Positions 1 through 32,986 of a stretch of DNA of 32,986 nucleotides are shown one piece after another (positions within the stretch are counted from its first letter, which is position 1; the number at the start of each line of letters is the position of its first letter). Location of the stretch: the IMG/VR virus record IMGVR_UViG_3300027770_000018, positions 1 through 32,986 of that record, one strand, 5' to 3'. Made by a program: the position numbers and the translations under genes. Below the pieces are notes generated by a model. It was not told the origin of the DNA and ran no database searches. It was given only the letters and a program-made list of their open reading frames with translations. This stretch comes from a virus.

Positions 1-116
1 ATTAAAAACCAGTAGATGCCATAACCTTCCATTCCAAGTTGCTGCCTTAAGAAAAGAATCTTCACATCATTGTGTGCATTGTAATCGTGCGAAAAGTAAA
101 ACGTATCTTTTTTCAT
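1..116 (-). CDS. 5' fragment of the Lin1244/Lin1753-domain replication protein (copy of 32244-32975)
   Basis: This is the first 38 codons of the gene annotated at 32244-32975, present a second time because the ends of the window overlap. The start codon is the ATG at 116-114. Reading continues off the left edge in frame and joins residue 39 onward at the right end of the window. It is not a separate gene or a duplication; in the circular genome there is one copy. The promoter and structured leader of that gene lie just upstream at 117-250. Confidence 0.9.
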   Translation of the reverse strand, partial: MKKDTFYFSHDYNAHNDVKILFLRQQLGMEGYGIYWFL

Positions 117-127
117 TAAATAAAAAA
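1..127. repeat. Direct terminal repeat, left copy (circle overlap)
   Basis: These 127 bases are identical to 32860-32986. An exact odd-length overlap of this size is typical of a de Bruijn assembler closing a circular molecule with k=127, so I read it as evidence that the genome is circular or circularly permuted, with a unique length of 32859 bp. The repeat cuts through the start of the replication-protein gene, with no cohesive-end or att-like structure at its edges. A true short terminal repeat cannot be fully excluded from sequence alone. Confidence 0.95.
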
Positions 128-162
128 AGGGTGTGCAATGGTAGAAGCATTACAAACCCTTT
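122..162 (-). terminator. Intrinsic terminator/attenuator hairpin upstream of the replication gene
   Basis: On the minus strand the arms 159-148 and 140-129 (GGGTTTGTAATG and CATTGCACACCC) pair in 11 of 12 positions, counting one G-U, around the 7-nt loop CTTCTAC. An A/U extension (160-162 with 126-128) lengthens the stem. A run of seven T follows (128-122). This is a standard Rho-independent terminator shape. Its U-tract ends only 5 nt before the start codon at 116, so it sits inside the leader of the following gene rather than at a neutral gap, which suggests attenuation. Confidence 0.75.
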
Positions 163-209
163 AAAGTTGAAATAAATATTTCGTTTCGGCTTCTACTACG
201 TAACGAAAT
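129..209 (-). promoter_or_regulatory. Two hairpins with complementary loops (candidate kissing-loop attenuator)
   Basis: The first minus-strand hairpin has 8-bp arms ATTTCGTT (209-202) and AACGAAAT (185-178) and a 16-nt loop containing GTAGAAGC (196-189). After a short A/U linker comes the terminator hairpin (159-129), whose 7-nt loop CTTCTAC is the exact complement of GTAGAAG in the first loop. The two loops could kiss. Alternatively, the 8-nt pairing GTAGAAGC/GCTTCTAC could invade the terminator by one base. The pairing is seen directly in the sequence; a regulatory role for the replication gene starting at 116 is inference. No known riboswitch or attenuator class is recognised. Confidence 0.55.
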
Positions 210-216
210 TGTGATA

Positions 217-250
217 CAAATATAAGAATTAATGTTTAAAATACTTCAAA
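217..250 (-). promoter_or_regulatory. Bacteroidetes-type promoter for the replication gene
   Basis: On the minus strand TTTG (250-247) is followed after 22 nt by TATATTTG (224-217), a perfect match to the Bacteroidetes -7 element TAnnTTTG; the usual spacing is about 19-21 nt, so this one is slightly long. It overlaps the last codons of the DnaA-like gene. A start site roughly 7 nt downstream would fall near 210, so the transcript would begin at the first hairpin of the structured leader (209-178). That agreement supports both predictions. Confidence 0.6.
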
Positions 251-588
251 CTGCCATAAATTTTCATATGCAATTTTTGGTACTCAAATCTGTAATCAGC
301 ATAAACTTGACAATATGTTTTAACGCATTTTATTCCATTGATAACAGTTGAATGGTCACGATTTCCAAGCAATTCACCTATTACCTTCAATGATATTTTA
401 TTGTCAAAATTAGAATACAACAAATCAAATATCTTATGCCTAATCGTAACCAAATGTAAATCCCTTCTTTTGCTTAATACTAAATCAATATTTTCATTAT
501 AGTAATTACAAACATCAATTATAATTTCATCAGGTTTTAAATTTAATACAGTTCCAGTTAATGTGCTGATGCAAGGTTGACAAATCAT
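229..588 (-). CDS. DnaA domain IV-like DNA-binding protein
   Basis: This 119-residue protein resembles only the C-terminal DNA-binding domain of DnaA. It has the basic segment SKRRDLHLVTIR (about residues 39-50) and the signature GNRDHSTVINGI (75-86), which in DnaA is GGRDHSTV and contacts the DnaA box. The AAA+ ATPase domains are absent, so it cannot be an initiator on its own. It may bind DnaA boxes near the phage origin or recruit or sequester host sites; that role is inferred. It starts in an ATGA overlap with the upstream gene and is the last gene before the structured leader of the replication protein. The domain call is solid, the function is not. Confidence 0.8.
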   Translation of the reverse strand: MICQPCISTLTGTVLNLKPDEIIIDVCNYYNENIDLVLSKRRDLHLVTIRHKIFDLLYSNFDNKISLKVIGELLGNRDHSTVINGIKCVKTYCQVYADYRFEYQKLHMKIYGSLKYFKH

Positions 589-2763: not shown

Positions 2764-2929
2764 CTTTTAGATTTTTTAAATAGTTATAAATTTTGTTTCG
2801 CAATTGGTTTTTATCAGTTAAATCTAATGTTGAATTTGCAACATAAATAGTAACTGGTGTCTTTTTGATTCCTGATGGTTTGCGACCTGAATTTTGTCGT
2901 TTGCCACCACGTGATTTTTTTTGTTCCAT
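2741..2929 (-). CDS. Small basic protein with GGKRxNSGRKP motif (putative DNA binding)
   Basis: This 62-residue protein opens with KKSRGGKRQNSGRKPSG, a glycine/arginine-rich arm seen at the N-terminus of many small phage DNA-binding proteins, some of which carry a ribbon-helix-helix fold. A short strand (TPVTIYVA) and a helix (NQLRNKIYNYLKNL) follow, compatible with such a fold. DNA binding, perhaps as an early regulator, is inferred from the motif and size. It overlaps the next gene by 23 bp. Confidence 0.7.
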   Translation of the reverse strand: MEQKKSRGGKRQNSGRKPSGIKKTPVTIYVANSTLDLTDKNQLRNKIYNYLKNLKDDTGTTI

Positions 2930-2960
2930 TTAATTTGTAATTGGTTGTACGAAACCACCG

Positions 2961-3044
2961 TTAAAATTTTATAAAGTTTTCTGCGAATAAGCAGATTAGA
3001 ATAATGATTGTTACAACGATTGTGTCTTTAGTGGATTGTTTCAT
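2961..3044 (-). CDS. 27-residue single-span membrane peptide
   Basis: An ATG at 3044 opens a 27-codon frame ending in TAA at 2961-2963: a short polar start MKQSTKDT, then a hydrophobic stretch IVVTIIILICLFA and a polar end. It lies in the 196-bp space between the 3126-3332 and 2741-2929 genes, which otherwise holds only a weak terminator-like hairpin. Its upstream A-rich leader (ATCAAAAATG) resembles that of the gene at 3332. Such short membrane peptides occur in Bacteroidetes phages without known role. Length alone makes this uncertain. Confidence 0.4.
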   Translation of the reverse strand: MKQSTKDTIVVTIIILICLFAENFIKF

Positions 3045-25222: not shown

Positions 25223-25477
25223 CTATTGTTTCGCTATTTTTTTCAAATGAATATGCTTCAAAAATTGCACCTGATTTTTTATATCACCATAAATAATATG
25301 GCACTTTCTACATAATGCCATCAAGTTTTCAATTGTATCTTTATCTTCAGCACCACCCATCCCACGTGCATCAATGTGATGGATATCAACTGCTCTTGCG
25401 CCACATAATTCACACGGAATAAAATCTTGTTCACCATATCCAAAATGCTGGAAATATATTTTAGTGTGTTTTTTCAT
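25223..25477 (-). CDS. HNH endonuclease
   Basis: From the ATG at 25477 this is an 84-residue single-domain nuclease (an ATG at 25489 would add four residues). It has CELCG (C22, C25) and IENLMALCRKCH (C56, C59) as zinc knuckles, with the catalytic region VDIHHID (H33, H34) between and an N before the second knuckle. HNH proteins beside terminase genes are known in HK97-like phages to help TerL cut DNA for packaging, which is the likely role. Homing mobility is an alternative, but the gene is tightly packed with its neighbours. It overlaps the methyltransferase gene by 17 bp. Confidence 0.9.
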   Translation of the reverse strand: MKKHTKIYFQHFGYGEQDFIPCELCGARAVDIHHIDARGMGGAEDKDTIENLMALCRKCHIIYGDIKNQVQFLKHIHLKKIAKQ

Positions 25478-26690
25478 ATGGCAATCCATTTCTTTTTATA
25501 ACTAATGTTGAATCAAGTTTCATCATCCTATCAACTATAACTTGACAATACTTTTCATCTAATTCCATTCCGTAGCATTTACGATTCAATTGATGTGCAG
25601 CAACCATTGTTGAACCTGAACCTAAAAATAAATCTAATACTGTCATTCCTTCTTTGCTTGAATTATTTAAAGCATTTTCAATAAGCGGTATCGGCTTCAT
25701 TGTTGGATGCAAGTCATTCTTTAATGTTCTCTGAAACTCCCATATATCTTCTTGCTTATACCTTTCACCATAAAAACAGCTTCCTGGCTGTCCATATATT
25801 ATTGGTTCATACCGACTTTTATAATCCATATTTGATAAAGCTGCTTGGTTCTTCATCCAAATAATTATATTTTTCCACTTGTACCCTGCATCAATTAAAC
25901 TATTTAAAAGTAGTTGTAATTCAGAATAAGCGAAACAGATATACCATGCTCCTTTATTAAACATAAAAAGGTTATTTAATACCCCTGCCATAAAATCTTT
26001 AAAATCATCCTCACTTAAAGAATCATTTTCTATCTCATCATGCTTTGTATTTGCCCCCTTGTGTCCATGTATTACAACTCCATCTTTAGTTGTATTACTT
26101 ATCCTTTGCCCTTGAAAAGATACCCTGTACGGCGGGTCAGTAAATACCATATCAGCCTTTTGTCCGTTCATTAACTTTGCCACTTGGTCGCTATCTGTAC
26201 TATCACCACAAAGCAAACGATGTTCCCCTATTTCTATTAAATCACCTAATACAAAATCAGATTTAATTTCATCAGGAATTTGATAATCATCTTCTTCTGC
26301 TTCAAGTTTAGTTTCTTCAAAGTTTGGAATATCCAAACCCCATTCTTCTAATTTATCAGCATCCCAGTTATTCGCTAAATCATCCCAATCCCATTCACCA
26401 AATCCAACATTATCTTTAATTACAAATTCATTCCTTTGTTCAACACTCCATTCATCTGCTAATGTAACCCAGTTTTCAGGTATCTCTTTATAATTTAATT
26501 CTTGCAATGCTTTTAAACGCATATTACCACCTAATGGATATAGTTTTCCATCAGTATCAGTTACACAAACGATTGGTCTTTTATCCATCATTTGTGGAAA
26601 ATCCTTAATTGATTTTACAAGTTTTTGAAACTTATCATCTTTAATAATTCTTGGATTATTTGGATTTGATTTTAGTTTAGTTATTTTCAT
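25461..26690 (-). CDS. ParB-domain / DNA methyltransferase fusion
   Basis: This 409-residue protein joins an N-terminal ParB-like nuclease/CTPase-type domain (SNPNNPRIIKDDKFQKLVKSI, with GGNMRLKALQEL at 54-65) to an amino-methyltransferase domain. The latter has TDPPY (motif IV, 184-188) before FLGSGS (motif I, 355-360) and a HPTMKP element (328-333); this motif order is of the beta class, N6-adenine or N4-cytosine. It would methylate phage or host DNA and may protect against restriction; no cognate restriction enzyme is seen, so it looks orphan. It overlaps the FkbM-like gene by ATGA. The sequence specificity cannot be read from the sequence. Confidence 0.9.
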   Translation of the reverse strand: MKITKLKSNPNNPRIIKDDKFQKLVKSIKDFPQMMDKRPIVCVTDTDGKLYPLGGNMRLKALQELNYKEIPENWVTLADEWSVEQRNEFVIKDNVGFGEWDWDDLANNWDADKLEEWGLDIPNFEETKLEAEEDDYQIPDEIKSDFVLGDLIEIGEHRLLCGDSTDSDQVAKLMNGQKADMVFTDPPYRVSFQGQRISNTTKDGVVIHGHKGANTKHDEIENDSLSEDDFKDFMAGVLNNLFMFNKGAWYICFAYSELQLLLNSLIDAGYKWKNIIIWMKNQAALSNMDYKSRYEPIIYGQPGSCFYGERYKQEDIWEFQRTLKNDLHPTMKPIPLIENALNNSSKEGMTVLDLFLGSGSTMVAAHQLNRKCYGMELDEKYCQVIVDRMMKLDSTLVIKRNGLPYEKTH

Positions 26691-32308: not shown

Positions 32309-32975
32309 TTGTTTCAAATTTTTGGTTTTTAATCCAATTTACAAAATATTTGTAAACTTCGGATTCGTTATTGTAATAAATTTCGCCAGTTAATTTTTCT
32401 AATTTAAATGCTTCCCAAAGTGATTCAATTTGATTCCTGTTGACATCAGTTTGTTTTAAAATTTTCATCTGTTCAATAATTGCCTGAAAATATTGATTTG
32501 GAAGTTCATTAAAATCTGTATTTAAATACTTTTTACCATTTAATTTAATTTCCTTTTCTTTCTTTTCCTTTCCTTTCCTTTCCTTTGCATTAGGGATGCC
32601 AATAGCCACCCCATTAGCCACCCCATTTTCTTTTGTTCCCCATCTTAATTCAGCACCTTTTTTGCCTTGTTCAGATAGATTTTTTCTAATGTTTAAATGA
32701 GATAATAAACGCTGACTAAAAAAAGATTCTTCGTGAACATCAAATAAATCAAATTGCTTGATTACTGCTTCAACCTTAACTTCTGTTGTATGCATCTGCA
32801 TTGATAGTACTGGAACAATTTTCAAAGGTAATATGCCACCTGAATCAGCAAGTGCTTCAATTAAAAACCAGTAGATGCCATAACCTTCCATTCCAAGTTG
32901 CTGCCTTAAGAAAAGAATCTTCACATCATTGTGTGCATTGTAATCGTGCGAAAAGTAAAACGTATCTTTTTTCAT
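32244..32975 (-). CDS. Lin1244/Lin1753-domain replication protein
   Basis: The first 95 residues (FYFSHDYNAHNDVKILFLRQQLGMEGYGIYWFLIEALADSGG, HLNIRKNLSEQGKKGAELRWG) are a Lin1244/Lin1753-type (formerly DUF4373) winged-helix domain found in phage replication initiators and helicase-loader-like proteins. A low-complexity linker with tandem repeats (about residues 115-140) leads to a C-terminal helical domain (IIEQMKILKQTDVNRNQIESLWEAFKLEKL, YFVNWIKNQ) resembling DnaD-type tails. It would open the origin or load host helicase, since no phage helicase or polymerase is seen. Its leader (117-250) holds a promoter, two hairpins and a terminator. Confidence 0.85.
   Translation of the reverse strand: MKKDTFYFSHDYNAHNDVKILFLRQQLGMEGYGIYWFLIEALADSGGILPLKIVPVLSMQMHTTEVKVEAVIKQFDLFDVHEESFFSQRLLSHLNIRKNLSEQGKKGAELRWGTKENGVANGVAIGIPNAKERKGKEKKEKEIKLNGKKYLNTDFNELPNQYFQAIIEQMKILKQTDVNRNQIESLWEAFKLEKLTGEIYYNNESEVYKYFVNWIKNQKFETNGKSIADKKIDAYSEWHNRYS
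32567..32586. repeat. (CCTTT)4 pentanucleotide repeat in the replication gene
   Basis: Four perfect copies of CCTTT (AAAGG on the coding strand) lie in the linker coding region. A change of copy number would shift the frame, so this could in principle switch the second half of the protein off. Only four copies, so slippage should be infrequent. Confidence 0.8.
32603..32626. repeat. 12-bp tandem duplication in the replication gene
   Basis: TAGCCACCCCAT occurs twice in tandem. In protein it gives two GVAN-like units (NGVANGVAIG) in the linker between the two folded domains of the replication protein. Being in frame, copy changes would only lengthen the linker. Confidence 0.8.
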
Positions 32976-32986
32976 TAAATAAAAAA
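32860..32986. repeat. Direct terminal repeat, right copy
   Basis: Exact second copy of bases 1-127 (see there). It includes the start codon region of the replication gene at 32975 and the first bases of its leader, and shows that the window closes on itself. Confidence 0.95.

Follow-up and report, generated by a model that had tools for sequence, protein, structure and literature searches.

Kissing between fully paired 7-nt loops controls replication in ColE1, where RNA I meets RNA II, and in the purine and lysine riboswitches, which are 5′ leaders with a terminator, two loops of the same molecule pair. The C4 RNAs of P1 and P7 are grouped with the CI immunity RNA of phage P4. In P4, a small RNA derived from the leader pairs with sites in that same leader and brings about premature termination before the replication genes (PMC4825925), and in pT181 and pIP501 kissing hairpins decide a terminator in front of the replication initiator (PMC4878617). 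Here we examined a virus record of 32,986 nt (hereafter the window, meaning the whole stretch of DNA analysed), in which a replication initiator gene is preceded by two adjacent hairpins with mutually complementary 7-nt loops, the second hairpin being a predicted intrinsic terminator. Together with its relatives in other phages, this element appears to represent an undescribed class of phage 5′ leader RNAs.

The replication leader and its genome

The first and last 127 bases of the record are identical (1-127 and 32860-32986), and the virus record is circular, so that the replication gene beginning at 116 continues across the junction and is present in full at 32975-32244 (Table 1). Its length, 127 bases, points to a k-mer overlap from assembly and not to a repeat of biological origin. 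The window has a G+C content of 31% and carries nearly all of its long ORFs, including every identified one, on the minus strand. Genes for a terminase, a lysozyme, an ERF recombinase, a portal protein and a ParB/methyltransferase-like protein were identified in it; at 25461-26690, a DNA methyltransferase domain is fused to a ParB-like N-terminus (phrog_498, phrog_8071). Of 50,697 phage records, none matched a 3-kb query around the leader at the DNA level. Because the promoter box has the form TAnnTTTG, the window phage and its relatives probably infect Bacteroidota; the relatives are metagenomic contigs (IMG/VR; labelled L001 and so on) lacking a host assignment.

An initial annotation of this DNA had proposed a perfect -7 box, a 5′ hairpin, a terminator and a coding start, in that order, and all four were found on the minus strand, with the box retained in the relatives that we aligned. 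The -7 boxes of Flavobacterium psychrophilum have been measured at -12 to -5 (PMC9723704), and with that placement transcription here would begin around 212, which lies 3 nt ahead of hairpin 1 and close to the originally suggested position near 210. Hairpin 1 has the coordinates first given for it, although the 8 bp then counted are only the contiguous part of its stem, and the terminator hairpin is present but occupies 162-126 rather than 159-122. Its loop CTTCTAC is, as claimed, the exact complement of the hairpin 1 loop over 7 nt, or 8 nt when the closing G148 is counted; with position 189 added, loop 1 reads GTAGAAGC at 196-189. The U-tract likewise ends 5 nt before the start codon, as described.

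Table 1. Features of the leader and flanking genes in the window.
Feature	Coordinates	Strand	Basis
DnaA domain IV-like orphan gene (119 aa), upstream of the leader	229-588	-	PF08299, E 3.6e-12; alignment A1
Possible -33 element TTTG, 22 nt before the -7 box, within the end of the DnaA-like gene	247-250	-	Sequence; consensus as cited in PMC7366714
-7 promoter box TATATTTG	217-224	-	Sequence; kept in alignment A2
Hairpin 1, RNA 5′ end, 10 bp and one A-A mismatch	178-209	-	Fold; covariation
Loop 1 GUAGAAG, kissing partner	190-196	-	153/153 cells paired with loop 2, 22 leaders
Possible alternative hairpin P2: GAAAT (182-178, base of the hairpin 1 3′ arm) with linker ATTTC (173-169)	169-182	-	
Hairpin 2, predicted intrinsic-terminator stem, 14 bp, one mismatch	126-162	-	Fold; covariation
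Loop 2 CUUCUAC, fully complementary to loop 1	141-147	-	
U-tract of predicted terminator, 7 U	122-128	-	Sequence
Replication initiator gene start, ATG 116-114, running over the circle junction	1-116	-	127-bp end repeat
Lin1244-type replication initiator, full copy, 243 aa	32244-32975	-	PF14297 Lin1244_N, E 3.8e-11; phrog_2562 replication initiation protein, E 1.9e-17

When we searched the window for the leader's 8-mers in trans, they were present in the leader only, and 7-mers occurred at about chance level. A structural scan for a hairpin followed by a terminator with a complementary loop returned 0 strong matches in 2.36 Mb of shuffled phage sequence. For the possible alternative hairpin P2, the native pairing beats swapped linkers with p about 0.006, which is weak evidence.

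Complementary loops in two types of leader

Relatives of the replication protein in IMG/VR carry the same layout with other loops (GUACCAG/CUGGUAC, GUUGCAG/CUGCAAC, AUUGCAG/CUGCAAU, GUCGCAU/AUGCGAC and GGUGGUAUC/GAUACCACC). We assembled these type I leaders into alignment A2, whose 22 distinct sequences came from the replication-protein relatives, from pattern searches and from a DnaA-C alignment search; with the pattern searches contributing the matches listed, type I leaders number at least 22, and part of the aligned members were picked by a loop-matching filter. The loop helix is paired in 153 of 153 cells, all of them Watson-Crick, with changes on both sides at 6 of its 7 positions, and its covariation score, with relatedness ignored, reaches 0.647 against 0.158 ± 0.029 in shuffled alignments and at most 0.129 in slid controls. 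Both stems vary in concert as well: hairpin 1 shows both-side changes in 9 of 10 pairs, and hairpin 2 covariation in 11 of 15. The -7 box and its short gap to hairpin 1 are conserved, and the linker is nearly constant (11-18 nt in the 22 leaders), suggesting a set geometry between the kissed hairpins.

Because many members of A2 had been chosen for matching loops, we built the covariance model R1 from the nested type I stems only, with the loop pairing excluded. R1 recovered L129 (79.8 bits), L380 (46.8 bits) and L002 (44.0 bits), whose loops are complementary in all three cases; L129 and L380 had escaped the loop-based scan. Matches at 42 bits and below include genuine type II or intermediate members (L454, L511), together with L334, L137 and L066, which lack a matching hairpin 1. 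Each record searched with R1 held one strong type I element, with the exception of L424.

In the second architecture, type II, hairpin 1 is short, at 5-8 bp, and the terminator is compound, with the complementary 7-nt loop on its inner hairpin. The strict scanner and R1 had missed this group, which surfaced on reading the raw DNA before start codons, and its source was the best 80 loci of the replication-protein alignment search. Loop pairs of at least 6 were present in 57 of 78 upstream regions against 20.8 in shuffles, and pairs of at least 7 in 50 of 78 against 5.6, with relatedness ignored in both comparisons. Alignment A7 contains 24 type II leaders, L457 and L510 having been omitted after MAFFT shifted their loop 2; here the loop helix is paired in 168 of 168 cells with both-side changes at 5 of 7 positions, its covariation score is 0.584 against 0.147 ± 0.029 in shuffled alignments (relatedness ignored), and the stems covary too. 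The covariation of stems and loops in relatives, to which the initial annotation had looked for support, is thus found in both types. The covariance model R2, made for type II without the loop helix, identified 44 places at 45 bits or more in the replication-protein set, several of them not preselected, and the loops match in 44 of 44. A third set, gathered with a DUF1376-like replication protein, yielded loop pairs of at least 7 in 12 of 79 regions against 1.8 in shuffles (relatedness ignored), and further members with short stems were spotted by eye.

Across 28 elements checked, we counted 27 different loop sequences, all complementary. Since the loops of relatives change completely yet stay complementary, we take the pairing to be real, and it is almost certainly a selected feature.

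The elements occupy varied gene settings. The genes downstream encode Lin1244-type initiators, DUF1376-like proteins, an SNF2 helicase, a DUF3987 protein or small ORFs, the last followed in several cases by a replication-type gene. The SNF2-type helicase behind the type I leader of L365 (10014-12812) seems to bear an intein (PF14890, E 5.9e-10). In two type II phages, a second element precedes a NUMOD4/HNH homing endonuclease (L554 at about 2000-2651, and L553, reverse strand); its loop pair, GUGAGAU/AUCUCAC, is identical in the two and differs from the pair before the replication genes of the same phages, whose replication leaders differ from each other. DnaA-C is the usual, though not constant, upstream neighbour of type I leaders, and dependence of the leader on it was rejected because in L340, L352/L365, L361 and L373 the gene immediately upstream is a different one. 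The DnaA domain IV-like orphan of the window (229-588) has a conserved CxxC-type N-terminus, and many of these phages have such a gene beside their replication operon.

The element is not universal, because the replication-protein relatives L003, L004, L476, L487 and L514 do without it and carry another or a single hairpin. In L004, at about 2900-3000, one long hairpin (GGGTAACTTCTGTTGC...GCAACAACAGAAGCTACCC) is followed by a T-rich stretch and an ATG, before a close relative of the replication protein. Cellular genome contigs gave 107 pattern matches, none convincing. Run without a positive control, R1 gave two matches on 299 and 395 Bacteroidota genomes, both rejected as unrelated (a TrpE leader, and a tRNA plus terminator), and R2, also without a positive control, gave no match on 395. 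Among named phages we found no DNA match, and scans returned no convincing element in the whole genomes of Flavobacterium phage 1/32 and Cellulophaga phi12:1, in most of the Croceibacter P2559S record, in 45 of 72 kb of Cellulophaga phi13:2, or in the parts scanned of one F. columnare phage and one Porphyromonas phage.

Leader exchange and candidate functions

With modest confidence, we favor the reading that loop pairing tunes termination ahead of the replication operon. RNA polymerase would start about 3 nt before hairpin 1, which would fold first and display its 7-nt loop; the terminator hairpin would then display the exact complement, and the two loops would pair, a step that the covariation supports. 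The kissing pair may set the balance between termination as a roughly 90-nt RNA and read-through into the replication operon, and by analogy with pT181 and P4 we lean towards pairing that would favor termination. Such pairing could be intramolecular, or a completed leader RNA could pair with one still being transcribed, the latter case making it a self-limiting dose sensor; more tentatively, P2 might compete with the base of hairpin 1. The promoter, the leader structure and an intrinsic-terminator form ahead of the coding start are conserved in A2 and A7, as in an attenuator. No antiterminator structure that would open the terminator was found, and inspection by eye revealed no segment that would compete with the terminator stem. 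Because the U-tract is poor or broken in L380, L454, L455 and L510, termination may not be universal.

Comparison between pairs of phages revealed how the leaders themselves vary. Between the window and L001, the bins beside the leader are 95-100% identical and the leader 72%, with the differences concentrated in the upper stems and loops; between L101 and L151, the leader is 98% identical and the flanks 73 and 78%. Stem identity is 0.85 in same-loop pairs versus 0.71 in different-loop pairs, at similar flank identities (0.66 and 0.63). Near-identical flanks around different leaders, and shared leaders within divergent flanks, therefore mark the leaders as exchangeable alleles; exchange alone is no proof of selection for diversity, because other stretches of these mosaic phages differ too. 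Among the 27 distinct loops, 19 carry U-N-R at loop-1 positions 2-4, and the pyrimidine of the full YUNR motif is mostly missing from loop 1. A YUNR U-turn has been reported to characterise loop-loop recognition across antisense systems generally (PMC4485353).

These observations bear on a second possibility, a trans-acting self-recognition RNA, in which the terminated leader would accumulate with copy number and, by pairing loop 2 with loop 1, act on leaders of the same kind as they are transcribed. It would provide copy-number control, or immunity or exclusion between related phages, with the loops defining compatibility groups. Loops that differ despite 95-100% identical flanks and loop-matched leaders common to divergent phages would fit such a role, as would the different loop pairs borne by two elements of one genome, the U-turn loops resembling those of antisense RNAs (PMC4485353) and the location before replication genes, as in P4 (PMC4825925). 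Proximity, however, favors pairing inside one molecule, mosaic exchange is common elsewhere in these genomes, and no sign of lysogeny was present among the window genes searched. Several loops, moreover, recur in unrelated phages, GUAGAAG in many of them, which would leave few compatibility groups. We regard the trans-acting RNA as a tentative option, somewhat unlikely, which may hold alongside the tuning of termination. More doubtful still is its fullest form, in which the terminated leader would shut off leaders of its own kind and thereby provide a protein-free copy counter and immunity groups through a swapped 7-nt code, as a new RNA class.

The sequence between hairpin 2 and the AUG weighs on a further alternative, in which the kissed hairpins would act as a compact cap at the 5′ end, shielding the RNA or gating ribosome access to the AUG, the U-rich stretch being no working terminator. 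This interval is 73% T in type I and 62% in type II, with 10-14% A, figures somewhat inflated because elements were chosen partly for T-rich tails, whereas 30% T and 51% A are found at other starts on these contigs. Adenine at -3 favors initiation at Flavobacterium starts (PMC6847099), and a stretch so rich in U and poor in A would suit the tail of a terminator better than the context of a Flavobacterium start. The type I stems and U-tract also have the full form of an intrinsic terminator. Hairpin 2 does end about 10-25 nt from the AUG, a region in which structure affects initiation in F. johnsoniae (PMC6847099), and some members have a weak U-tract; even so, control through translation or mRNA stability seems to us improbable.

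It is highly improbable that the element is a DNA-level site, at which proteins would read the inverted repeats of a replication origin, an operator or a recombination site. The inverted repeats do adjoin the replication gene and often the DnaA-like gene, but complementary 7-mers fall exactly in both hairpin loops of every aligned member, between promoter box and U-tract, their pairing is kept while the sequences change, and in two members the gene that follows is for a homing endonuclease and not for replication. Finally, although the upstream gene does finish just before the leader, a chance assembly of a promoter, an unrelated hairpin, that gene's terminator and accidental loop complementarity is ruled out statistically by the covariation and the shuffles, and its probability is negligible.

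Relation to described RNA regulators

Searches against Rfam 15 gave best matches of E 1.4-3.9 for the window region, far under the gathering scores, and no match for L464, L511, L455, L380 or L352. A literature search, with most subscription papers outside its reach, found no description of the element. The initial view that no described class fits has therefore held up, and the interpretation offered with it, of an attenuator-like leader, is partly supported. The element precedes replication genes of several unrelated types in phages whose probable hosts are Bacteroidota, a group in which phage gene control is little known, and it would offer a clean system: a 7-bp code in 27 variants, with natural swaps between near-identical phages.

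The proposed mechanism resembles attenuators and kissing antisense RNAs, and we found no precedent for an RNA class whose single leader supplies both partners, in a code that varies but always matches. The 27 distinct loops are all complementary to their partners, and 19 of them carry UNR in loop 1, as natural kissing loops do. Unlike the riboswitches, the element has no junction or ligand-binding core, the terminator hairpin itself pairs, and the loops are hypervariable. ColE1 differs in using two separate RNAs and in controlling a primer rather than attenuation. In pT181 and pIP501, an antisense RNA read from the other strand serves as the partner and there is also an antiterminator segment. 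In our element the partner would come from the leader's own strand, within that leader, and we found no antiterminator; by eye, no evident TAnnTTTG box for an antisense promoter was seen on the reverse strand of the leader. The CI RNA of P4 is flanked by two target sites, seqA and seqC, in contrast to the single complementary site here. In our element the two partners are 7-nt loops carried by neighbouring hairpins, the second of which is the predicted intrinsic terminator, and by sequence it displayed no processing and no relation to CI. What it shares with P4 CI, in all aligned members, is a leader RNA complementary to a site in the same leader, placed before replication genes.
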